Virus record (IMG/VR): IMGVR_UViG_3300023174_003114
Span: 1-50,934 of that record
Reading direction: 5' to 3' (one strand)
Length of the DNA: 50,934 bases
Source: a virus
Position 1 is the stretch's first letter, and the number at the start of each line of letters is the position of its first letter. The position numbers and the translations under genes are program-made. Of the stretch, positions 6,678 through 26,371 are shown one piece after another. Below the pieces are notes generated by a model that saw only the letters and a program-made list of their open reading frames with translations, searched no databases and was not told the origin of the DNA.

Positions 6678-9600
6678 TTATACTGAAATTGCATTGATTG
6701 AGACCTTATACACAGTATCATTAAACACTGGTGTGGTTAACAATCTAATATTATTAGCTGAAATATCAGCAGTGAATGTGGCCAATAATTGGCTAGGGTT
6801 GGACAAGATCTCTCCGTACTGTGTCAAAAATACACTAGCACCATCATGCACTACTAGAATCTTTAAAGCATGATAATATGCGCCACTGGTCACTGACACT
6901 GTGAATTCTACAGTTCTATATTTTATGCCATTAACTGTGGCTGCTATTTGATCTGTTGCTGTGGTAGTTGTGGTCAGTGTACTTGAATCTATTAGAACTG
7001 TTTCATTATCCAATGTAACTAAACCAGCAGCAATTGATCCAGTGCCTGTGATAGTTGGACTAGACAATGTCTTGTTAGTAAATGTTTCAAGATTGTCTAA
7101 TGTAGCCAATATTCCTGTAATTGGTAATGTTACATTGGTGGTGGCTGTAGTTGTAAAATTAGTACTATATGCGCCTGTAGTAGATAAACTTCCACCCAAG
7201 GTCAATGTATTGGTGCCATTGTTAACGCCAGTGCCGCCATATGTGGGGGCAACAATAGTGCCCTGCCATGTACCAGTGCCAATTGTGCCCACTGAAGTCA
7301 AACTAGATCCAGTTACTCCTGAACCCAAACTTGAAGCTGATAGTACTTGTGTTTCATTAATCTTATAAACTTTGCCAGTAACTAAGTCTAAATTGTCACT
7401 GCTGGTCCAAGACGATGTTGTTCTTTTCCAAACAAAGGTTTTGTCATCAGCACCCTTTACAGTAAGTCCGCCGTTGTCTGCGGTATAGTCCGATACACCA
7501 CCAATATTAAATGTAATTGAGCCCACAGTATTGGCATCATCTGCTTGGAAGGTAAACGAAGTAGTGTTCAATACGTCAACCACTCTGGCATTACTACCAA
7601 AGTCACCAACACCGCTGACCTTGGTCAACAACATACCACCAGTAATTCCAGCAGTGCTGGCTAATCCAGTAATTGTAGATAAACTAGCGGCGTCAGCAAT
7701 TACACCAGTTTTATTATTTGATGCAGAAACCACACCTAATTGAATGTTTTTATCAGCTATGGTAAGCTTGCCAGAAGTTATTGCAACTATTCCACCTAAG
7801 TCAATATTCCCATCAACAGTTAAGTTTTTAAAATTAAGACTGTCACTCCAACTTGGCGCAGAACCTGTACTGACCATGACCTTATTGGCTGTGCCAATGT
7901 TTAACTTGCCCAATGACGTTGTGCCATTGGCATAGATCATATCGCCACTAGTATAGCTGGTTAAATTAGTACCGCCCTTGTTAACTGGTTGAGTAGTATG
8001 ATTAACTGAGTCTAACAAATAACTACTGTTATTGCCGTTTACTGTGGCAGCATCAATCACATTGTCTTTAATAAAGACCTTACCAGCAGTGACTCCATCA
8101 CCTATAGTAAATTGACTTTTACTAAATGCTACCACACCACTGTTGGAGTATAGTGCGTCACCACGAGTTCCATCTACTGGATCAATGTTTAATGTGACAT
8201 CGGCGTAGAATTTATTAACACCACCATTTGTGAAAAAATCACCTGTTAAACTTAAAGGACTATTAGTGCCTGTTTTTAAAGTTTGAACAGCTCGAGCCCA
8301 ACTGCTATCACCTCTGAGGAAAGTTCCAGTATTGGCTGTACCAGTGGCTAGTCTACTGGTGTTAATTATACCACTAACTATGTTACTGGCATCAATGTTA
8401 TTGGCACTTAAACTACTCCAGTTAATGGCCAATGTAGATCCAGTATTGACCACTGAGGTAATCTGTACATTTTGTAAAGTAAATGTAGCTGAGCCACTGC
8501 CAGTGCTAGACAAGTTAATAGGGTTAAAAGTCTGACCATTTATACTGGACAATGCATCTGCTTTTAATTGATGTAGGGTAAAGCTATTTGTAGTTACAGA
8601 TCCAATAAAATAAAAATTACCAGATGGTATGCCATTTGGCAATGATGAGCCTGTTAGACAAATAGGATCGCCTGTGCTAAATCCGTGTGTGGGCAAATAT
8701 ATGGTATCTTTGATTAGATCAACAGCATTTACGGTTAGGCTTTGTGTACCTGTGCCGCTACTAACAAATGCAATCTTATTTTGTATTGTATAATCAGTAC
8801 ATAATTCAACGGTATTACTGTCATATACTTTAATATAATATACACTGCCACCAACTAAGCCACCTATATTAACATACGGTGATGATGTATATTTTACAGG
8901 ATCACCATTACTAAATCCATGACTGCTAATAGTTATTCTACTGTTAATATAATCAACATTTCCGCCCACTGAAGCTGCATTGAATGACTTTACTGAGTTT
9001 GTAGTTAAAGTGACAGTATTGATTAAGGCATTGTTATCATAGATATATTCTGGAACAATACTACTTGCTGTAAACTTTTGTGAACCTACAATATCTACAT
9101 ACAATCTCTTTTGAATACTAGTAACTCTTATACTAAATTGAACAGCATAAGTGCCACCAATATTAGTATATGCAGCACGTATTTGATCGTTAACAGCATA
9201 GCCACTGCCACCTCTAACCAAATAAACATTGGTCACTGAACCATTAGTTACTGTAATGTCTGCTATGGCACCTGTGCCAGTTCCAGTAATTGATACTAAA
9301 GGCACATTAGTATAAACTTGGAACCCTGATGCTGGTGTATATCCAGATCCACCTACAATATTTGCGTTATCAAGTGAATAAAGTACACCGTATACTGTAT
9401 CAGTAACAGTACCTATTGCTTGATAATTAGCACCAACTACTGATGTTATGCCTGTAAAATCATAATCCTTTGAAGGATCCAATACTAAAAATTGACTAGG
9501 TGCCTGTTCAGATAGAATATAGTTAACAGTTTGTCCAGTAGTAATTGAGCCTACATTACTAGGAGTGACTGATTGATTAGTGTCGCTTGGGGTACTGTCA

Positions 9601-12600
9601 CCTCCTATGATCAACGTGTCTGTGGTATTAAAGGCAGCATTGAATGTGGATTTTAAGTAGCTACCCACAGTTATTAATGTTGCAGCAGCCACATTGCCTA
9701 TGATAACGCCCTTGGCTCCTGTGGTGTTTTGCTCAACTACTGTGCCATCTGCTGCTGTTATAGCACGATCTAAAGTCAATTCCTGTATGCTATATGTCTC
9801 TGTAGCAAGGTCTCCGTTTAAGAGATTTACTGCTGGAACATTTTCAACTTGTACTAATCTACTATCATAACCTTGGCTACGATAACTTAGGAAGTTTCTA
9901 ACTGGGGGGATTAAATCTGCATTAAGTTGGCCCAAGCTGTTTAACTGTGGAATAGCACCAGATACGTTGTTAGTGCTAACACGCTTGTCAATGAAGTCAC
10001 CTAGTCTATTTGCTAGATAACTCTTTACTGCTAATTGTGTGCTTAGTCTTGTATCCTTTGGTCCACCTACTTCATTATCACCTAAGCCAATATCTGTACT
10101 AAACTCCTCAATGGTCACATTGCCCACAGCCAATCTCAATGCTGCCAGCGCACCAATTGTAACTGTGTTAGTAAATGTTACGTTACCAGTTTTGTTTTCA
10201 GCTTTGATGAAGTCACCAACTTTGAAGTCACCAAGTTCGTTAGTACCCGAAGTATATACTCTACCAGGAAGATCACTAAATTGTTCGTAATCAGGATCAC
10301 CTTTGCCACCGTTTTGTGGTAAGGCATTATAGTCTGTGCCTGATCCTGCATACTCCCAAGAGTGACTACTACTATTAACAATACTAGGTCGGTGTAACCA
10401 AATTTGTTTCTCTGGCAAGTTACCTAAATTTATTAATTGTGTGCCATTGGTCACTGGCAATATTTTTACATTTACTGTGTAAAGTGTATTAATGGAATCA
10501 TAAGCATTGACCACTATACCAGCAACAGGACTGGATGAATGATCATAATTGATAACGCTAGTATCATTAAACGGTCTTCTTGATATTACATTGTTTACAG
10601 TAACATAATCTAAACTGACTATTAGCTCATACGTTAATGGATCATAAGTATAAACATATGCTCTATTTGGGCTGCCACCAGTTTCACCTTCTATTACTCT
10701 ACCTGTGACAAATTTATAATCACCTGCATCTAAAGTTAATTTTTGATAGTCAGTGTGACTGTCAACAATTGTATCTACATAAAACTCTTTGACGTTCTTA
10801 ATAAATTTTTGTTGCCCAATGCTGGTACCTAATATATTAACTCTAGAGGTTAAACTGTTATCATAGAATAGGCCAAATTGATTTACGGTTTTAAAATCTA
10901 CATAATAGGTTTGTTCATTTGTCAGACCAGGAACAGTTGCGAATGAATTACTGTTATAAATTACTTTTTGACCGTTTAATAAACCGTGTCCAGTAATATT
11001 AAACACATTGTCACCAGCATCAACAGAAGTAGCAGCATTAAAGTTAACGTAATCACTAGCTGAAATAGGTTGATAGTTAGCTGAAATATCTCCCACATTA
11101 CTATAAGATATACTAACTGGGGCTGATGCAGGATCATCAATAATGCCAATGATAATGTCAAACTTCTGTTCTACAATAAAATCTATACCTAAGTCTACGA
11201 CAACTGCCATACATTCTTGTTTTAGGTATTCAAATGCTGCTATATTTTGAAGTGTTTGAGCTGTGAGTGCAGCTACATCAGCATTGGCATAACTTAAACC
11301 AGCTTCAACTGATCTACTATTACCACCTGTTAACACATCATTGGCCACTGCTTCGACTAGCAAGCCAACATCTCTATGGCATTTGTCTTCATCATAGACA
11401 AAGCCTGATGTAAATGGACTAATATTACCATTTACTTGTATGGTAATCCAATCTATAACTGCTGTTTGTAACCTAGTTTTATTTTCTAATAGATCAAAAT
11501 AGGCATTTTTGTATGCAGTATCTCTAAACCTAATTACATAATCCTGCACAGGTAATTGGCCAAACCCAATAGCTTGGAGCGTTTGTTGTGCGCCATTAGT
11601 ACCAGTACCAACTACCACACCTCTATTGAATGAGAACGCATTGGGACTATATCCACTGGCTCTAAGTGCATATTTGCCAAAGTTAGTAGCACTGTTAGTA
11701 ATACTTAAATATCCACCGCTTTGGCAATAGCTACCATTCAAGCAGAAGATCTGGAAACAGCTAACAATCTGTGCATAAGCATCATTGATTACACGCCATC
11801 CTGTGCCACCAAAGCTCAACATGGTAAAGGCGTTGGCCACCATGGACTTGCCTTGCTCTGGTTCTGGTCCTTCTACTGGATTTTCTACTTCATTTGGATT
11901 TTTTGGCTTGTTAGGTGTGTTAACTTTGTTACCATCAACCAATACACCGTTGCCGCCTAAGAAACTGATAATACTACAGTTTTGAATATAAGGAGAAATT
12001 GTAATAGTGGGACGGGTGTCAGGCATGTTTGTATAGCCTGTTCTATCACAGTTTGTGTCAGCGGGGTCATCAAAACTCACAGCATAATCAAATGTGAATT
12101 GTGGTGTTCCATTGACGTTTAGATTATCTCTAAAAGTAAACCCAGTAAAGTAACACGCATTACGCACACGCAACATATCTAAGTTGGCGTTTAATGGGCG
12201 AATGTTACAGGCTCTTAGTCCAGCACCCTGTACACTGACATTGTCTGGAATGATAATTGGGTTGTCTTCGTAGTATTCACCGTTGGCCACACTGACTACA
12301 AGCTTTTTATCGTTAGGCTTGCCATCTTCATCATAGACAATACCACTGGCTATTTGCAAGGCACGTTTAACTGTTTTAACTGGTTTATTAATACCGTCGT
12401 TAGCATCGTCACCATAGACATTACTGACGTTTACCTTGCCGCCACCAAATGCATCAGGGCTGACAAATTCTAATTCACCAGTGGCATTTTGTCCTAGTAC
12501 ATATCCGTCCAATCCCAATGCTGGCGGCAATGTCATTGTGTAAGATGACAACAAATAATCAGGTGCTTTGAGGTTAACTGATGTCACACCATTTGTAGCA

Positions 12601-15188
12601 AGTTCTTTAAATTTAAGTTGACCAGCATTGTTAATAATTTGTTCATCAGCTTTGATCGTAGTACCGTCAACAGTTGATGGGGTTGATCCACCAATTGGGG
12701 TACTGTTAATCGTACCGCCGGTGACTGCAACATTACTAAAACTGCTTGATCCAGTACTGGTCACGTTGCCAGTTAGGTCACCACTAAATCCAGTAGTGGC
12801 TGTGATTGTAGTACCCTTTACTGTACTTGCTGTTGTTGCTCCAATTGGAGTATTATTAATCTTACCACCAGTAACATCAATATCGCTAAAGCTACTTGTT
12901 CCTGTACTGGTCACATTACCTGTGACATTGCCAGTTAAGTTGCCTGTGACATTGCCAGTTAAATTACCTGTGACATTGCCAGTTAAATTACCTGTGACAT
13001 TGCCAGTTAGATCACCACTGAATCCAGTGGTAGCTGTGATTGTAGTACCTTTTACCGTAGTTGGATTTGTAGCACCGATTGTTGTAGTATTGATACTGCC
13101 ACCAGTTACAGTAATATTGCTGAAACTACTAGTACCAGTACTGGTCACATTGCCAGTTAGGTTGCCACTAAATTCAGTAGTGGCTGTGATAGTAGTGCCT
13201 TTTATTGTAGTTGGCGTAGTGGCACCTATTGGTGTATTATTAATCTTACCACCAGTAACATCAATATCGCTAAAGCTACTTGTTCCTGTGCTGGTCACAT
13301 TACCTGTGACATTACCAGTTAGATTACCTGTAACATTACCAGTTAGGTTGCCTGTAACATTACCTGTGACATTACCAGTTAGGTTACCACTAAATCCAGT
13401 AGTAGCCGTAATTGTAGTACCTCTTATAGTGCTAGCAGTAGTAGCACCAATTGGTGTATTATTGATACTACCACCAGTTACATCAATACTACTGAAACTA
13501 CTAGTGCCAGTGCTGGTCACATTACCTGTGACATTACCTGTGACATTGCCAGTTAGGTTACCTGTGACATTGCCAGTTAGGTTACCTGTGACATTGCCAG
13601 TTAGGTTACCTGTGACATTGCCAGTTAGGTTACCACTAAATCCACTAGTAGCTGTGATAGTAGTTCCTCTTATGGTACTGGCAGTAGTAGCCCCAATTGG
13701 TGTAGTATTAATACTTCCACCTGTTATGGTAACATTGCTAAAACTACTTGACCCCGTACTGGTTATATTACCAGTAACTGAACCAGTAAAAGTTGCATTG
13801 GTACCATCAGTTCCGTTGTCTAAAACCTTAGCATCATTATTGGCAACGATATCACCTTTTAAATCACCTGTGACATTTCCTGAACTATTACCTTCAAATG
13901 ATCCTACAAACTTATCTGTGGCAGTGACCACTGTGCCAGTAATAGTAGTTCCAGTGATACGAAATGGAATGGTTTTACCAATCTCTGTGTTATCTATAGT
14001 ACCTGGAGTACCTGTGGTTGAATAAATTGCTACTTCATTAAATGTGCTTTTACCACTGCTATTTACATTACCAGTGAATACTGCATTAGTTCCATCGTTG
14101 CCATTTTCTAATATTTTACTGGTGCCATCCGAGGCATAGACATCACCAATAAGTTTGCCTGTGACTCCGCCCGCTGTATTTACAGTACCAGTAAATGTGG
14201 CATTGTTTCCATCTGTGCCATTTTCTAATATCTTTGTTACACCATCGGCAGCATAGATGTCACCAATTATGTTACCAGTGAATGTGGCAGGAACAGTAGT
14301 ACCATTGCCATTTTCTAATACTTTGGTAGTACCATTGCTGGCATATACATCACCAGTTAAGTCTCCTGCTACGTTACCTGTGACATTGCCAGTTAAATTA
14401 CCTGTGACATTGCCAGTATGCACACCAGTTGTATTACCTGTAACATTACCTGTGACATTACCTGTTAGGTTACCACTAAATCCAGTGGTAGCTGTGATTG
14501 TAGTACCTTTTACGGTACTTGGAGTAGTAGCACCAATTGGAGTGGAATTGATACTACCACCCGTGATTGTAGCACTACTAAAACTACTTGATCCTGTACT
14601 GGTTATGTTGCCTGTAACATCGCCTGTAAATAGAGCATTAAGCCCTGTAGATCCGTTGTCTAATACTCTTATGCCATTGGTAGAGTATACATCACCTCTA
14701 AGGTTACCTGTAACATCGCCTGTGACATTGCCACTTACGTTAACATTTAATGTGCCGCTGTTGCCTGTTAAATCAAGACCATTTACTTTGAGTGTGCCGG
14801 CTACATTGAGATCACCTTGTATGCCCACTCCGCCTGCTACTGTTAAAGCGCCAGTGTATTCATCAACACTAGACTCTTCAGATAAGATGCTTACAGTTAC
14901 AGGATCCTGTATCTCCAGTAGGTTTTTAGTTATGTGAACTGTTAGTTCATCATCATTATAAAAGTCAAGTTCTTCTAAATCACTGGCATCTATATAAGTT
15001 TTACCAGAAGTATTTCTAAATCTACCTAATACTATAGCATAATTTAATTCAGTCCAAGTATTTACACCGTCGCCTATTTTGAAGTTCTTATTGGTCAGAT
15101 CAATACCAATTTCACCTTGTGCAAGTTTAGGATTGATTCGTTCCCAATTTACTAGGGTGTCTCTTCTTAACTGTATTTTTTTTGCCAT
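6678..15188 (-). CDS. giant tail-fibre protein, 2836 aa
   Basis: The largest gene here. Residues 1-60 (KKIQLRRDTLVNWERINP, then LAQGEIGIDLTNKNFKIGDG) form the N-terminal attachment domain seen in many T4-like marine phage fibres; the 565-residue fibre has a related start. Residues about 140-830 are tandem GNVTGN/GNLTGN/STGTSSFS units. About 870-1250 look like a right-handed beta-helix, opening with VYGDDANDGINKPVKTVKRA. The rest is mixed repeats, including an 'ITVADKNIQLG'-like block, and a C-terminal tip shared with the 833-residue fibre. A late-type octamer and an RBS hairpin lie upstream. Length is far above typical fibre genes; it is intact with no internal stop. Confidence 0.85.
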   Translation of the reverse strand: MAKKIQLRRDTLVNWERINPKLAQGEIGIDLTNKNFKIGDGVNTWTELNYAIVLGRFRNTSGKTYIDASDLEELDFYNDDELTVHITKNLLEIQDPVTVSILSEESSVDEYTGALTVAGGVGIQGDLNVAGTLKVNGLDLTGNSGTLNVNVSGNVTGDVTGNLRGDVYSTNGIRVLDNGSTGLNALFTGDVTGNITSTGSSSFSSATITGGSINSTPIGATTPSTVKGTTITATTGFSGNLTGNVTGNVTGNTTGVHTGNVTGNLTGNVTGNVAGDLTGDVYASNGTTKVLENGNGTTVPATFTGNIIGDIYAADGVTKILENGTDGNNATFTGTVNTAGGVTGKLIGDVYASDGTSKILENGNDGTNAVFTGNVNSSGKSTFNEVAIYSTTGTPGTIDNTEIGKTIPFRITGTTITGTVVTATDKFVGSFEGNSSGNVTGDLKGDIVANNDAKVLDNGTDGTNATFTGSVTGNITSTGSSSFSNVTITGGSINTTPIGATTASTIRGTTITATSGFSGNLTGNVTGNLTGNVTGNLTGNVTGNLTGNVTGNVTGNVTSTGTSSFSSIDVTGGSINNTPIGATTASTIRGTTITATTGFSGNLTGNVTGNVTGNLTGNVTGNLTGNVTGNVTSTGTSSFSDIDVTGGKINNTPIGATTPTTIKGTTITATTEFSGNLTGNVTSTGTSSFSNITVTGGSINTTTIGATNPTTVKGTTITATTGFSGDLTGNVTGNLTGNVTGNLTGNVTGNLTGNVTGNVTSTGTSSFSDIDVTGGKINNTPIGATTASTVKGTTITATTGFSGDLTGNVTSTGSSSFSNVAVTGGTINSTPIGGSTPSTVDGTTIKADEQIINNAGQLKFKELATNGVTSVNLKAPDYLLSSYTMTLPPALGLDGYVLGQNATGELEFVSPDAFGGGKVNVSNVYGDDANDGINKPVKTVKRALQIASGIVYDEDGKPNDKKLVVSVANGEYYEDNPIIIPDNVSVQGAGLRACNIRPLNANLDMLRVRNACYFTGFTFRDNLNVNGTPQFTFDYAVSFDDPADTNCDRTGYTNMPDTRPTITISPYIQNCSIISFLGGNGVLVDGNKVNTPNKPKNPNEVENPVEGPEPEQGKSMVANAFTMLSFGGTGWRVINDAYAQIVSCFQIFCLNGSYCQSGGYLSITNSATNFGKYALRASGYSPNAFSFNRGVVVGTGTNGAQQTLQAIGFGQLPVQDYVIRFRDTAYKNAYFDLLENKTRLQTAVIDWITIQVNGNISPFTSGFVYDEDKCHRDVGLLVEAVANDVLTGGNSRSVEAGLSYANADVAALTAQTLQNIAAFEYLKQECMAVVVDLGIDFIVEQKFDIIIGIIDDPASAPVSISYSNVGDISANYQPISASDYVNFNAATSVDAGDNVFNITGHGLLNGQKVIYNSNSFATVPGLTNEQTYYVDFKTVNQFGLFYDNSLTSRVNILGTSIGQQKFIKNVKEFYVDTIVDSHTDYQKLTLDAGDYKFVTGRVIEGETGGSPNRAYVYTYDPLTYELIVSLDYVTVNNVISRRPFNDTSVINYDHSSSPVAGIVVNAYDSINTLYTVNVKILPVTNGTQLINLGNLPEKQIWLHRPSIVNSSSHSWEYAGSGTDYNALPQNGGKGDPDYEQFSDLPGRVYTSGTNELGDFKVGDFIKAENKTGNVTFTNTVTIGALAALRLAVGNVTIEEFSTDIGLGDNEVGGPKDTRLSTQLAVKSYLANRLGDFIDKRVSTNNVSGAIPQLNSLGQLNADLIPPVRNFLSYRSQGYDSRLVQVENVPAVNLLNGDLATETYSIQELTLDRAITAADGTVVEQNTTGAKGVIIGNVAAATLITVGSYLKSTFNAAFNTTDTLIIGGDSTPSDTNQSVTPSNVGSITTGQTVNYILSEQAPSQFLVLDPSKDYDFTGITSVVGANYQAIGTVTDTVYGVLYSLDNANIVGGSGYTPASGFQVYTNVPLVSITGTGTGAIADITVTNGSVTNVYLVRGGSGYAVNDQIRAAYTNIGGTYAVQFSIRVTSIQKRLYVDIVGSQKFTASSIVPEYIYDNNALINTVTLTTNSVKSFNAASVGGNVDYINSRITISSHGFSNGDPVKYTSSPYVNIGGLVGGSVYYIKVYDSNTVELCTDYTIQNKIAFVSSGTGTQSLTVNAVDLIKDTIYLPTHGFSTGDPICLTGSSLPNGIPSGNFYFIGSVTTNSFTLHQLKADALSSINGQTFNPINLSSTGSGSATFTLQNVQITSVVNTGSTLAINWSSLSANNIDASNIVSGIINTSRLATGTANTGTFLRGDSSWARAVQTLKTGTNSPLSLTGDFFTNGGVNKFYADVTLNIDPVDGTRGDALYSNSGVVAFSKSQFTIGDGVTAGKVFIKDNVIDAATVNGNNSSYLLDSVNHTTQPVNKGGTNLTSYTSGDMIYANGTTSLGKLNIGTANKVMVSTGSAPSWSDSLNFKNLTVDGNIDLGGIVAITSGKLTIADKNIQLGVVSASNNKTGVIADAASLSTITGLASTAGITGGMLLTKVSGVGDFGSNARVVDVLNTTSFTFQADDANTVGSITFNIGGVSDYTADNGGLTVKGADDKTFVWKRTTSSWTSSDNLDLVTGKVYKINETQVLSASSLGSGVTGSSLTSVGTIGTGTWQGTIVAPTYGGTGVNNGTNTLTLGGSLSTTGAYSTNFTTTATTNVTLPITGILATLDNLETFTNKTLSSPTITGTGSIAAGLVTLDNETVLIDSSTLTTTTTATDQIAATVNGIKYRTVEFTVSVTSGAYYHALKILVVHDGASVFLTQYGEILSNPSQLLATFTADISANNIRLLTTPVFNDTVYKVSINAISV
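12740..14720 (-). repeat. tandem coding repeat in giant fibre (GNVTGNLTG units)
   Basis: Short units of the form 'ACATTGCCAGTTAGGTTACC' on the plus strand recur dozens of times, grouped in larger blocks of roughly 150-300 bp that end in a STGTSSFS/TPIGATT module. They are in frame and encode the GNVTGN shaft. Silent third-base differences between copies show that the protein repeat is kept while the DNA drifts. The units are also natural sites for copy-number change by recombination. Confidence 0.85.
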
Positions 15189-21997: not shown

Positions 21998-22026
21998 ATT
22001 ATACTACAGAGTCAACGGCTTGTCAA
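21998..22026 (-). promoter_or_regulatory. near-consensus sigma70 promoter of the exonuclease gene
   Basis: Minus-strand TTGACA (22026-22021), 17-base spacer, TATAAT (22003-21998), both boxes exact. Five bases (TGGGT) separate the -10 box from ATG 21992 and no Shine-Dalgarno exists, so the transcript should be leaderless. Confidence 0.8.
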
Positions 22027-22313
22027 CCTATTCTTTTTGCCGTTGCTTTTTTAGCCATTTGACTTACTGTGCTACGACCCGTTTCACCACCACTTTGTTG
22101 ACTGGCTGTTTCAGCACTGGTCTTTAGCTTGACTCCTTGTGGATCAAAACTACAGATGTCTTTGAAACTGGGATTGGCATCAAATCTAGGACCAAACTTA
22201 TCTGCGCTATCAATGCGCTGTCCTAGGACGTTTTCTGTTTCATTGCCAAGAGCACGCCAACTAATAACTTCTGGATTTCCTCTGCTATCGGCGGCATTTT
22301 TCTTTGCCACCAA
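22023..22313 (-). CDS. hypothetical 96-aa protein or frameshifted C-terminal extension of the virion protein
   Basis: Read alone it would start at TTG 22313 or GTG 22310 with no good Shine-Dalgarno. The same frame stays open upstream to the A11 run at 22347-22357 and codes a plausible continuous helix there (VTEATDKLFDLLVAKKNAAD). Loss of one A (or gain of two) would join the preceding 321-residue protein to it. The protein has PRFDANPSFKDICSFDPQGV and a basic C-terminus (MAKKATAKRIG) but no known domain. I think it is more likely an extension domain than an independent gene. Confidence 0.5.
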   Translation of the reverse strand: MVAKKNAADSRGNPEVISWRALGNETENVLGQRIDSADKFGPRFDANPSFKDICSFDPQGVKLKTSAETASQQSGGETGRSTVSQMAKKATAKRIG

Positions 22314-22329
22314 TAGGTCAAATAACTTA

Positions 22330-23295
22330 TCAGTGGCTTCTGTTACTTTTTTTTTTTGAAGTTAGAATTGTGGCTAACTTACGACTGTACATACTTTCTC
22401 TCATGGCACGACCAGCTGCTCCACCTTCTGGTGCTTCACCTGCTGCTTCTTCTGGTGGACCTTCTTCTGCACCCATGCCACCGCCTGCCCCTGCTAGCCC
22501 TGGACCAGCACCCATACCACTTGGAGCTGGACCTCCTGTGCCTGTTAATACACCTACAGCCTGTGCCAGTGCCTGACGATTCTTTTCAAGTGCCAAATAG
22601 ATTTCATCCAATGCTGGACGAACTGTTTGCTCAAATTGTGTGCTAGTATCACTGCCCATTTCATCTCTTATAGAGTCTAATAAATCTAACATAGCTTCTG
22701 ATTTCATTGAAGCAACATCTTCTAACCAGCCTGTAATACGATCAACCATGTCCTTACTGGCCATGATTAATTCTGCCTTTTCTTCTTCGCCTTCTGTGAT
22801 AATTAAATCTCTTACAACGCCTTTGGCTGTGGTTTCGTCTAGGTCATAACGTACAATTAGTTCGCTAACAACTTCTTCATCAGCATCACGTTCCATCATT
22901 AAACGCTGTCTTGCGTTCTGCACCCAATCTTTATTGAAACTGTGCCCTTGTAGACGACGCATAGCATTGTGATATTCTTTTAGATTCTTCATCTTTTTCT
23001 TCTTACCTCTAGTACCCTCTTCCACATCATCTTCTTCACGTGTTTCACGTTCAGCAATCTCTTGATTAATCACATCAAGAAACATTTTGTTCTTTTGATA
23101 TTTGTGACTGCTCAATACACTGTCATAACTTTCATTAGTTTCAAATTGACTCTGTGCTGTTCTTAGTTTGTTTCTTGCATCATGTAACTGCTCTGTGGTG
23201 AATCGTTCGAGGTTGATACTGTATCCAAACTTTTGGGATAAACTTTCATTAAGTTGTCTACTGGTAAGTGGTTTATGAAGATCTTTGATATTCAT
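22330..23295 (-). CDS. conserved T4-like virion-type protein, 321 aa
   Basis: Opens with MNIKDLHKPLTSRQLNESL, then a helical region (INLERFTTEQLHDARNKL, FLDVINQEIAERE) and an acidic helical core (EEEKAELIMASKDMVDRITG) followed by MKSEAMLDLLDSIRDEMG. This layout is familiar from conserved structural or core proteins of T4-like marine phages. The last 70 residues are Gly/Pro/Ala-rich, then MYSRKLATILTSKKK at the A11 run, where the frame ends in SNRSH. AGGAACCC precedes the ATG, and GATAAATA lies upstream. Exact virion position unknown. Confidence 0.7.
   Translation of the reverse strand: MNIKDLHKPLTSRQLNESLSQKFGYSINLERFTTEQLHDARNKLRTAQSQFETNESYDSVLSSHKYQKNKMFLDVINQEIAERETREEDDVEEGTRGKKKKMKNLKEYHNAMRRLQGHSFNKDWVQNARQRLMMERDADEEVVSELIVRYDLDETTAKGVVRDLIITEGEEEKAELIMASKDMVDRITGWLEDVASMKSEAMLDLLDSIRDEMGSDTSTQFEQTVRPALDEIYLALEKNRQALAQAVGVLTGTGGPAPSGMGAGPGLAGAGGGMGAEEGPPEEAAGEAPEGGAAGRAMRESMYSRKLATILTSKKKSNRSH
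22347..22357 (-). other. A11 slippery run at the end of the virion gene
   Basis: Eleven consecutive A on the coding strand, close to the 3' end of the 321-residue frame. The frame used by the downstream 96-residue ORF enters at exactly this run. Candidate for transcriptional slippage, or for a one-base homopolymer error in the assembly. Confidence 0.75.
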
Positions 23296-23762: not shown

Positions 23763-23952
23763 TGGCTACAACCTTTGGATCCTTGTGCCCTATCTTGATC
23801 AGCAAATGTTTACGTATCATAACTTCGGCTATTTGTTGTTCACGTTGAGGCATAGTACTTAGCAAAGTAGGCCTAGTTAGTTTGTCCAATAAGGCACGTT
23901 CCTCGTTAGTAGTATAGATTTCAAAACTCTTAATCAGTTCGTTGATTTTCAT
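23740..23952 (-). CDS. conserved phage hypothetical, 70 aa
   Basis: All-helical 70-residue protein starting MKINELIKSFEIYTTNEE; helices ERALLDKL and REQQIAEVMIRKHLL. Its MK-x-x-EL start is shared with several other proteins in the window (see findings). The start overlaps the stop of the Pro/Ala-rich gene (ATGA). Function not known. Confidence 0.6.
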   Translation of the reverse strand: MKINELIKSFEIYTTNEERALLDKLTRPTLLSTMPQREQQIAEVMIRKHLLIKIGHKDPKVVANDYQASR

Positions 23953-25118
23953 CTAAGTCCTGCAATACGTAGCATGGCTGTGAGTTCAGGATCCTCACTA
24001 AGTCTACTTTCTTTTTTAACTTGCATAGCTTTTAGTAACGCTGTGTTGGCTTCTGCACTTCCTGCTTTAAATTTACCAGCACCTAATTTTTGATCCACAA
24101 ATGCTTGATCAAGTCTTTGTTGCTTGGTAACGCCTAATTTTTCTAAAGACTGGCCTACTGAGCCAGCTGCTGGTGCTGCTGGTGCCCCAGCTACCGTCAT
24201 ACCCTTTTCTGGTTTGGCTCCTGGTGGCAATTGTAATGGTTGATCAGCAAGTGATGTATACTTTTGCACTCCATTCTCTGGATTAACACCTGGAGGAACT
24301 GCTGCTGGTGTTGCTGCTGCTGGTGTTGCTGCTGGTGTTGCTGCTGCTGGTGTTGCTGCTGGTGTTGCTGCTGGTGTTGCTGCTGGTGCTGCTGCTGGTG
24401 TTGCTGCTGGTGCTGCTGCTTGATCGCTATATTTGACCTGTTGTTTTTGATGTGCATCAAGTCTCTCTTTAGCTAATGCGTCATCATCATATGGATTTCT
24501 ATCAGTCATTCCAGTATCAGCACCAGGGTTAGGTACTGGTTTGGCTGCTGGTGTTGATGGTGCCGCTGCTGCTGGAGCTGCTGGAGTTGATGATGAATTA
24601 CCTGGCATGTACGCAGGTACCTCTGGTGCTTGATCGGCTCTTGTTTTTTCAATTGTGGAATCCAACTCAGCTTCTGGGTTAGCATTGTCACCACTTAGGC
24701 TAGTTGCTGGTGCCTTGGCTGCAGCCAATGCTGATGCAGGTGTTACTTTAGGCTGTGCTGCTGGTGGCGAGGCTCCTTGATTAACTGGCGTACCATCTCC
24801 GCTAACTAATTGTCCGCCTGATCCTGTGCCTACTGTACCAGGTTTTGGACCGCCTCGAGTACTATTACTTGCCGATGCTGCAAAAGGATCGCCTATGCCC
24901 ATACCTTCTACCTCTGCTACCATTTTGATTGTACTCATAGTTTTTGGATCAGGCTGACCAGTTTGATCTAACCCTGCATACTTTTGAAAAATACTAATTG
25001 CTCTAGCAGTATCTGCGTATTTGGTAGTATAAGATTCTTGTAGGCCAGATAGTTGTCTTACTCTAGCTACCTCAATTTGCTCCAATAGAGCCTTGGCAAA
25101 GATTTGCATTTTATTCAT
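23949..25118 (-). CDS. Pro/Ala/Thr-rich protein with N-terminal PG-binding-like segment
   Basis: 389 residues. Residues about 35-70 (ARAISIFQKYAGLDQTGQPD, then PKTMSTIKMV) resemble a short peptidoglycan-binding domain. Residues about 75-310 are low-complexity linker, including a (PAATPAATPAA)n tract. The C-terminal 70 residues are again folded (SVGQSLEKLGVTKQQRLDQA and a charged helix). It looks like two small domains joined by a long flexible spacer, as in virion or cell-wall-interacting proteins. AGGAATCTAAT precedes ATG 25118. It is adjacent to a second Pro/Ala-rich gene. Confidence 0.6.
   Translation of the reverse strand: MNKMQIFAKALLEQIEVARVRQLSGLQESYTTKYADTARAISIFQKYAGLDQTGQPDPKTMSTIKMVAEVEGMGIGDPFAASASNSTRGGPKPGTVGTGSGGQLVSGDGTPVNQGASPPAAQPKVTPASALAAAKAPATSLSGDNANPEAELDSTIEKTRADQAPEVPAYMPGNSSSTPAAPAAAAPSTPAAKPVPNPGADTGMTDRNPYDDDALAKERLDAHQKQQVKYSDQAAAPAATPAAAPAATPAATPAATPAAATPAATPAAATPAAVPPGVNPENGVQKYTSLADQPLQLPPGAKPEKGMTVAGAPAAPAAGSVGQSLEKLGVTKQQRLDQAFVDQKLGAGKFKAGSAEANTALLKAMQVKKESRLSEDPELTAMLRIAGLR
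24299..24420 (-). repeat. short tandem repeat coding (PAATPAA)n
   Basis: On the plus strand about ten in-frame copies of a 12-15 base unit (GCTGCTGGTGTT and variants). It encodes the Pro/Ala/Thr linker of the 389-residue protein; unit lengths are multiples of three, so copy-number change keeps the frame. Confidence 0.85.
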
Positions 25119-25119
25119 A

Positions 25120-25674
25120 TTAGATTCCTGCTAATTTTTTTAAATTTAATACGTCCTGATTTCCAGTTTGTGTATTCAGTACGCTTACTCCAGCCACACG
25201 TTGTGCCAATTTGGCAATGTATGCTGCTTCATCTAAAGGTTCATTTAGACTTTTGAATTCTTTTTCTAATTTACTTATGGGATCTTCTTCACCAAAGTTT
25301 TCTGTAGTTGGTGCATTTTGTTGTCCACCCTGCTCTGGTGGGGCACCTGCAGGAGGTTGAGAAGGAGCTGCTGCTGGTGCTGCTGCTGGATTTGGAGTCA
25401 TTGCTCCTGGTGCTCCAACTACTTTGATATCCTGTCCAGGTTTGAGGCTGGCTGCTGGATCTGGCGCCGATGGCGAAACAGCTTTAGGATCAACTACTGG
25501 AACTCCATCTTGTCCTACAGTGACCACACCTGGCTTTAAAGGCACTGTGACCTCAGGAGCAGGAGCACTGGGATTCTTAGGATCAGGCTGTGTGTAGGTC
25601 AATTCAGTACTACTTGCTTTAGTTACCTCAGCTCGTGATGGAGGAGCACCACCAGTTATTTCATAAATTTTCAT
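25120..25674 (-). CDS. Pro/Ala-rich phage protein, 184 aa
   Basis: Starts MKIYEITGGAPPSRAEV. Residues 20-140 are Pro/Ala/Val-rich with beta-prone VVTVGQDGVPVVDP; the C-terminal 45 residues (EEDPISKLEKEFKSLNEPLD, then EAAYIAKLAQRVAGV) are helical. Composition matches the next gene, so both may be linkers or accessory virion proteins. GGAACAACAAT precedes ATG 25674; it overlaps the nucleotidyltransferase gene by 14 bases. Family not recognised. Confidence 0.6.
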   Translation of the reverse strand: MKIYEITGGAPPSRAEVTKASSTELTYTQPDPKNPSAPAPEVTVPLKPGVVTVGQDGVPVVDPKAVSPSAPDPAASLKPGQDIKVVGAPGAMTPNPAAAPAAAPSQPPAGAPPEQGGQQNAPTTENFGEEDPISKLEKEFKSLNEPLDEAAYIAKLAQRVAGVSVLNTQTGNQDVLNLKKLAGI

Positions 25675-26371
25675 ATTGTTGTTCCAAACTCAACCTGTCG
25701 GCTTCTATATTACTTATGTGATTTCTAAGTTTTTCTATGTGACCTTTGGCTCGTAACACTTTAAACGCTATGTTTTCTGCACTGAGCTCGCCACCTGTGC
25801 TTAACCCGTGTTGACGTAATCTCTTAATACTGTCCAACACTTCTTTAACAGACTCTATGTCATCACTACGTAGGGCCACACGTACCTTACCCACAAATTG
25901 TTTATACTTTTCTTTTACTGAGGCCCTATCTACTGTGTCCTCCACAGTCTCTGGGATCTTTAACCAACGATCATCCAATACAGAATATATGCCTGCACTG
26001 GTATGTGGCTGCTGACTATCTTGCACATACAACTCTACATCAATACCTTTGATTTGTATGTTGTGTTGAAAATTATACTGATTCTTCTTTGCATCAAATA
26101 ACTGTTTGAGTAGGATCTTCTTATCCTCAGGCATGTCCACTACAAGATGTAGATCAATATCACTGTTCCTACTATAGGTATAGCCAGCATTACTACCACT
26201 CAATGTGATGTCTTGTAAGTGTAATTCTTCAATGCCAATATACTCTATAAAATTCTTAGCTATCTTTAATAATGTATAACGTACAATGGGCTTGAGTTTG
26301 CCTTTATTCCATAATTTAAGATTAAGGCGTCGATGAAAGATAACTGCTGAACTGACAAGATCTTCGTGCAT
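25661..26371 (-). CDS. nucleotidyltransferase-fold protein
   Basis: 236 residues with the polymerase-beta-type nucleotidyltransferase signature: LSGSNAGYTYSRNSDIDLHL gives GS followed by the D-x-D metal pair, and GIDVELYVQD supplies the third acidic residue. The C-terminal half is helical (KEKYKQFVGKVRVAL onward), like the helical domain of MNT-type enzymes. Similar genes occur in T4-like marine phages. Could adenylylate a protein or RNA; target unknown. A late-type octamer lies only four bases before the ATG and no Shine-Dalgarno is seen. Confidence 0.75.
   Translation of the reverse strand: MHEDLVSSAVIFHRRLNLKLWNKGKLKPIVRYTLLKIAKNFIEYIGIEELHLQDITLSGSNAGYTYSRNSDIDLHLVVDMPEDKKILLKQLFDAKKNQYNFQHNIQIKGIDVELYVQDSQQPHTSAGIYSVLDDRWLKIPETVEDTVDRASVKEKYKQFVGKVRVALRSDDIESVKEVLDSIKRLRQHGLSTGGELSAENIAFKVLRAKGHIEKLRNHISNIEADRLSLEQQYENL

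Follow-up and report, generated by a model that had tools for sequence, protein, structure and literature searches.

A large family of uncultured phages, some with contigs of up to 400 kb, may use -1 frameshifting in an undescribed virion-type gene, and in one of its clades a two-base growth of the A-run may have switched the gene to RNA-polymerase slippage (or to a +1/-2 shift) while the fusion protein was kept. This clade is the one to which the window belongs, the window being the whole 50,934-base stretch of viral DNA that we analyzed. We regard this full account, read from sequence, as evenly poised between right and wrong. A narrower reading seems to us probable, namely that this is one gene with two forms produced through programmed recoding, which would be -1 ribosomal in most of the family and would proceed by polymerase slippage in the window clade. 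In the mechanism that we propose, standard decoding would end at a Lys-Lys-Lys run or shortly past it and yield a helical protein, probably one of the virion or its assembly, and the fraction that shifts frame within the A-run would gain a small C-terminal domain, usually one without a start codon of its own. We infer both the occurrence and the efficiency of this shift. In most of the phage family, the ribosome would move by -1 at A_AAA_AAG (or at the variants ending in A or C), often with a downstream stem-loop. In the window clade, RNA polymerase would slip on A10/A11 and give rise to A10-type transcripts, which would be decoded normally into the same SKKKVTE fusion.

Eleven T on the plus strand of the window, corresponding to A11 on the coding (minus) strand, mark the point at which two reading frames meet, just as the first-pass annotation had claimed. 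The junction comprises the following features:

22347..22357, minus strand: A11 slip run
22330..23295, minus strand: zero-frame ORF of 321 aa, ending in SKKKSNRSH (the short form), with a distant match to PHROG 14154
22330..22346, minus strand: zero-frame tail past the run, consisting of the rest of AGT followed by AAC AGA AGC CAC TGA, which gives SNRSH and the stop
22023..22346 including the stop, minus strand: downstream frame VTEATDKLFD...AKRIG, 107 aa, entered with one A fewer
22285..22316, minus strand: 12-bp stem-loop, CUAUUGGUGGCA / UGCCGCCGAUAG, 30 nt past the run and conserved with the nearest -1 relatives

The 321-aa ORF reads ...LTSKKKSNRSH* through the A11. With one A removed, the frame reads SKKKVTEATDKLFDLLVAKKNAADSRG... 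into a 96-aa ORF, and the resulting sequence, SKKKVTEATDKLFDLLVAKKNAADS, continues to the stop at 22023. The link between the two frames proposed in the first-pass annotation is thus borne out by the reading frames, and the fused product of 423 aa (316 + 107) comes close to its estimate of about 430 residues. The same annotation was right that the 96-aa ORF lacks a good start: its listed start is a TTG at 22311-22313, inspection by eye showed no ribosome site of the AGGA/GGAG type in front of this codon, and the downstream domain of the window has no preceding ATG. The downstream frame sits at +1/-2 from the slip run, outside the -1 geometry, and a -1 shift on the A11 runs immediately into TAA. 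The window clade therefore needs either one A fewer in the RNA or a +1/-2 shift on the ribosome. Apart from the A11, no homopolymer in the window reaches nine bases. The runner-up is a T8 on the plus strand (15176-15183; A8 on the coding strand), which lies directly 3' of the start codon of a 2836-aa ORF (6678-15188, minus strand) and is possibly slip-prone too; this ORF encodes a tail-like protein rich in TGNVTGN-type repeats.

We scanned IMG/VR with both halves of the gene and with their relatives, which led to several hundred contigs with a gene for the upstream protein, plus three MAG contigs, and searched all stop-to-stop frames of each retrieved locus with profiles of both halves. The relatives' contigs include very large ones (399,796 and 356,312 bases). 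The check suggested at the outset, whether homologues form one continuous frame, gave a clear answer, as not one of the 206 distinct IMG/VR and MAG junctions is continuous. Rather, 166 of the 206 encode the downstream domain in the -1 frame, preceded by an A_AAA_AA[G/A/C] heptamer in the zero-frame register. (The automatic table gave 168 such junctions; L092 and L171 additionally carry an ATG before the domain and were counted as separate genes.) The typical family junction reads TCA AAA AAA AAG TAA, and the usual heptamer context among the -1 junctions is TCAAAAAAAAAGTAA. The last base of the heptamer is G in 142 of the 166, A in 20 and C in four, and the run is A9 in 136, A10 in 17, A8 in five and A6 in eight. 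No in-frame ATG is found near the domain start in 145 of the -1 junctions, and six carry a TAATG overlap that would permit reinitiation. Another group of about 35 among the 206 consists of separate genes and unusual cases; in most of these an ATG closely follows the upstream stop, and the heptamer is missing from nearly all. In about 30 relatives the two parts are separate genes that start at an ATG of their own, mostly with a ribosome site, and here, too, the heptamer is nearly always absent, such that heptamer and own start codon are nearly mutually exclusive across the junctions. In one relative (L089:3740-4500), the upstream protein is extended at its C terminus by additional sequence that closes with a TCTAAAAAAAAAGTAA of its own, a different open frame of 160 residues lies at -1, and the usual downstream domain comes next as a separate ATG gene. 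The arrangement resembles a second frameshift junction, here leading into an unrelated domain.

The pattern exceeds what chance would give. A_AAA_AAN occurs in the last five codons of two of the 926 other ORFs of the fetched loci, neither with an open -1 frame, versus 168 of the 206 focal junctions, and of 187 KKK at other places in these genes, 7 use the codons AAA AAA AAG. The 166 junctions have a conserved X_XXY_YYZ heptamer in the zero-frame register, followed by an open -1 frame that carries a conserved domain. Downstream stem-loops are present as well, yet z falls below -2.5 at only 47 of 90 sites. Across these 90 sites, folding of the 60 nt past the slip site gave a mean z of -2.67 against shuffles, versus -0.21 for control segments of the same loci (Wilcoxon p 7e-14). 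A 13-pair hairpin in a 38-sequence clade is paired in 75.5% of cells, versus 30-48% when the pairing is slid, and shows 22 two-sided changes versus 8.3 in shuffles; hairpin covariation is seen in two clades, this one and the window's neighborhood. Because no junction is continuous, the conserved heptamer goes with a mostly start-less domain, stem-loops follow it, and separate-ATG genes nearly always lack it, we consider programmed recoding, with a short and a longer, frameshifted product predicted from these sequences, well supported.

As to how most of the family would shift, A_AA.A_AA.G is one of the -1 motifs that work most efficiently in E. coli (PMC4066793), and slippage by the E. coli RNA polymerase was first detected at eight A's (PMC6260861). 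Eight sites of the family carry only A6, which is below this threshold and makes -1 ribosomal frameshifting the likely family mechanism. The A9 majority could use transcriptional slippage by +1 A instead, with an identical SKKKV fusion either way. Programmed transcriptional slippage giving a short and a long form, one of the two readings in the first-pass annotation, stands in its two-form part, with 166 of the 206 junctions split behind an A-run; as to the route, a -1 shift of the ribosome on A_AAA_AAG is likelier for most of the family.

The window group forms one clade nested among the -1 lineages (SH-aLRT 98-99). Its five distinct junctions (the window, L002, L004, L005 and L006) read TC[A/C], ten A's and GTAACAG, with the domain at +1/-2. 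L086 and L092, which the automatic rule had placed in the window group and the -1 group, respectively, have their own ATG and were counted as separate genes. The run is two bases longer than in the -1 relatives, either as A11 or as TCC plus A10. Over informative pairs of the clade, the downstream frame has a dN/dS of 0.087-0.205, whereas the values for the two remaining frames are about 0.8 to 4; judged by these ratios, it is under purifying selection. It contains no stops, and its length and motifs are kept. Synonymous changes number 4/72 in the first 24 codons past the run, whereas later segments have 12-35% and the stretch immediately ahead of the run has 36%. The 12-bp stem at 22285-22316 shows two-sided changes at three pairs, and covariation in the window's neighborhood is above that in shuffles. 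Ribosomal stimulators usually lie at 5-8 nt (PMC4066793), and the stem's 30 nt is beyond that spacing, which makes a stimulator role doubtful.

Transcriptional slippage on A10/A11 is the best explanation for the window clade and in our view the most likely route, as the run is long enough and one A fewer restores the frame. On A11, deletion predominated with the E. coli RNA polymerase in vitro (PMC6260861), and long poly(A) runs in insect endosymbionts yield 12-50% frame-corrected transcripts (PMC5009743). Work on lacZ constructs carrying 7-11 A's weakens the one-A-deletion route, since the reported efficiency of insertion there was two or more times that of deletion (cited in PMC6260861). The main rival is a shift on the ribosome, by +1 or by -2 on AAA AAA AAA AGT, the latter adding one lysine. 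Every such step would re-pair perfectly on poly(A), the rest of the family looks ribosomal, and some phage coat and tail genes interchange +1 and -1 (PMC5009743). Neither a stop codon nor a rare pair directly past the run favors +1, however, the stem is far from the run, and A10/A11 already suffices for polymerase slippage. We consider a ribosomal +1/-2 shift unlikely, although it is the strongest of the alternatives.

A production of the downstream frame as a protein of its own, by internal initiation or termination-reinitiation, is improbable in our judgment. The relatives with separate ATG genes, the TAATG overlaps and the jumbo phage RaK2, in which a pair of neighboring ATG genes occupies the corresponding position, all speak for it, and the first-pass annotation had named homologues of exactly this kind, with clear starts, as the case that would overturn its reading. 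Such homologues exist, but the near-exclusion between heptamer and own start makes them an alternative architecture rather than a refutation, and both the window domain, with neither ATG nor ribosome site before it, and the 145 -1 junctions that likewise have no nearby in-frame ATG argue against separate synthesis.

Slightly less probable again is an error of sequencing or assembly, the other possibility raised at first, in which the true run would be one A shorter, giving a continuous gene, or two shorter, as in the -1 relatives. Long homopolymers are error-prone, and the contig of a 93% relative (L007:1-8) begins 11 nt downstream of the run, a possible assembly break. Against this, contigs of close relatives from several metagenome assemblies keep the same offset (L002/L003, L004, L005 and L006, from assemblies 3300027973/3300027974, 3300032329, 3300027760 and 3300023174), and they do so with two run lengths, A11 after TCA and A10 after TCC. 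An identical error is improbable because differently numbered assemblies share the offset with both run lengths, and a run one A shorter would have its continuous gene in a family that has none among 206 junctions. That a recent two-base insertion broke the gene in the window clade and left its downstream half decaying would account for an offset unlike that of all -1 relatives, but is scarcely credible given a dN/dS of 0.09-0.20 within the clade and an intact, stop-free frame.

The upstream protein of the window matches PHROG 14154 ('virion structural protein') with E 1.6e-9 over 89 residues, as do 36 of 39 relatives, the best at 6.1e-19; from this weak profile match, a virion role is probable. 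Its structure is modeled as long helices with a low-confidence Gly/Pro-rich linker, and a fold search with the model returned good matches to uncharacterized phage proteins only. The profile of the upstream protein also finds distant counterparts in the jumbo phages RaK2 and Atu_ph07 (1.0e-9 and 2.5e-14), and BLAST-level searches of cultured phages with the window and relative proteins gave nothing significant. For the downstream domain, sequence, profile and fold searches yielded no convincing relative: no match from fold searches with its model fell below E 0.001, PDB sequences searched by profile yielded just two weak matches, to unrelated enzymes (best E 0.01), and its alignment was too diverse for a pattern scan. 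RaK2 ORF136 occupies the same position and has a similar C-terminal motif, with an hhalign probability of 1.6% against the downstream domain. In the ORF135-ORF136 pair (L373:3402-4384), ORF135 is the distant counterpart of the upstream protein, and ORF136 ends in VQDMAGKAATDS, resembling VSQMAKKAT in the window, a likeness that does not establish homology. In the parts of the RaK2 and CBB papers available to us, we found no virion evidence for the counterpart gene. By analogy with the gpG/gpGT and coat-protein frameshifts of phages (PMC5009743), the longer product is likely a C-terminally extended variant of an assembly or virion protein, produced in the smaller amount and at a fixed ratio.

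The window gene adjoins exonuclease and ribonucleotide reductase genes. Elsewhere in the window, a CAACAG-like DNA repeat (24197-24460) encodes PAAT-type protein repeats in a 389-aa ORF (23949-25118) and has long open frames in other frames too, and a 236-aa ORF (25661-26371) has a weak nucleotidyltransferase match (PF01909, E 0.0036) along with a match to PHROG 36119, of unknown function (E 6.2e-46).

Ordinary annotation would split this gene and leave its second half as a start-less orphan, and the gene appears to be common among aquatic phages. A single gene family here offers -1 sites from A6 to A10, a clade with A10/A11 at the opposite offset, and separate-gene versions. This range of site types makes the interchangeability of ribosomal frameshifting and polymerase slippage directly testable, and, if our reading is true, the family documents a natural transition from one recoding mechanism to another. 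Phage recoding itself is already known. In the literature that we searched, we found neither this gene family nor a within-family change of shift direction, and no paper combining jumbo phage, frameshift and slippery sequence; a recoded phage gene family with such a change is apparently undescribed.

The family junctions resemble the bacterial -1 sites of dnaX and IS elements in having A_AAA_AAG in the zero-frame register, a stop close behind and, in many relatives, stem-loops. They differ in that the gene is another one, carried by uncultured phages, in that shifting should lengthen the product and add a new domain to it, and in that the window clade itself falls outside the -1 geometry. The predicted products recall the lambda gpG/gpGT tail chaperone and the T7/T3-type coat protein, where a phage assembly or virion gene makes a major short form and a minor C-terminally extended one (PMC5009743), an arrangement that we predict here from sequence. 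Unlike in those systems, the present gene lies beside exonuclease and ribonucleotide reductase genes, and its upstream protein matches a head-and-packaging PHROG only, with no sequence relationship seen to either. RaK2 has the same gene order as the window (upstream gene, small gene, exonuclease, nrdA), but its ORF135 and ORF136 are two separate ATG genes. The window clade resembles Thermus dnaX, Shigella mxiE and spa13 and the A10 genes of Buchnera, in which one base more or fewer in a run of 10-11 A's restores the frame (PMC6260861, PMC5009743). Unlike those slippage genes, it is nested in a family that otherwise keeps a ribosomal -1 heptamer, down to A6.
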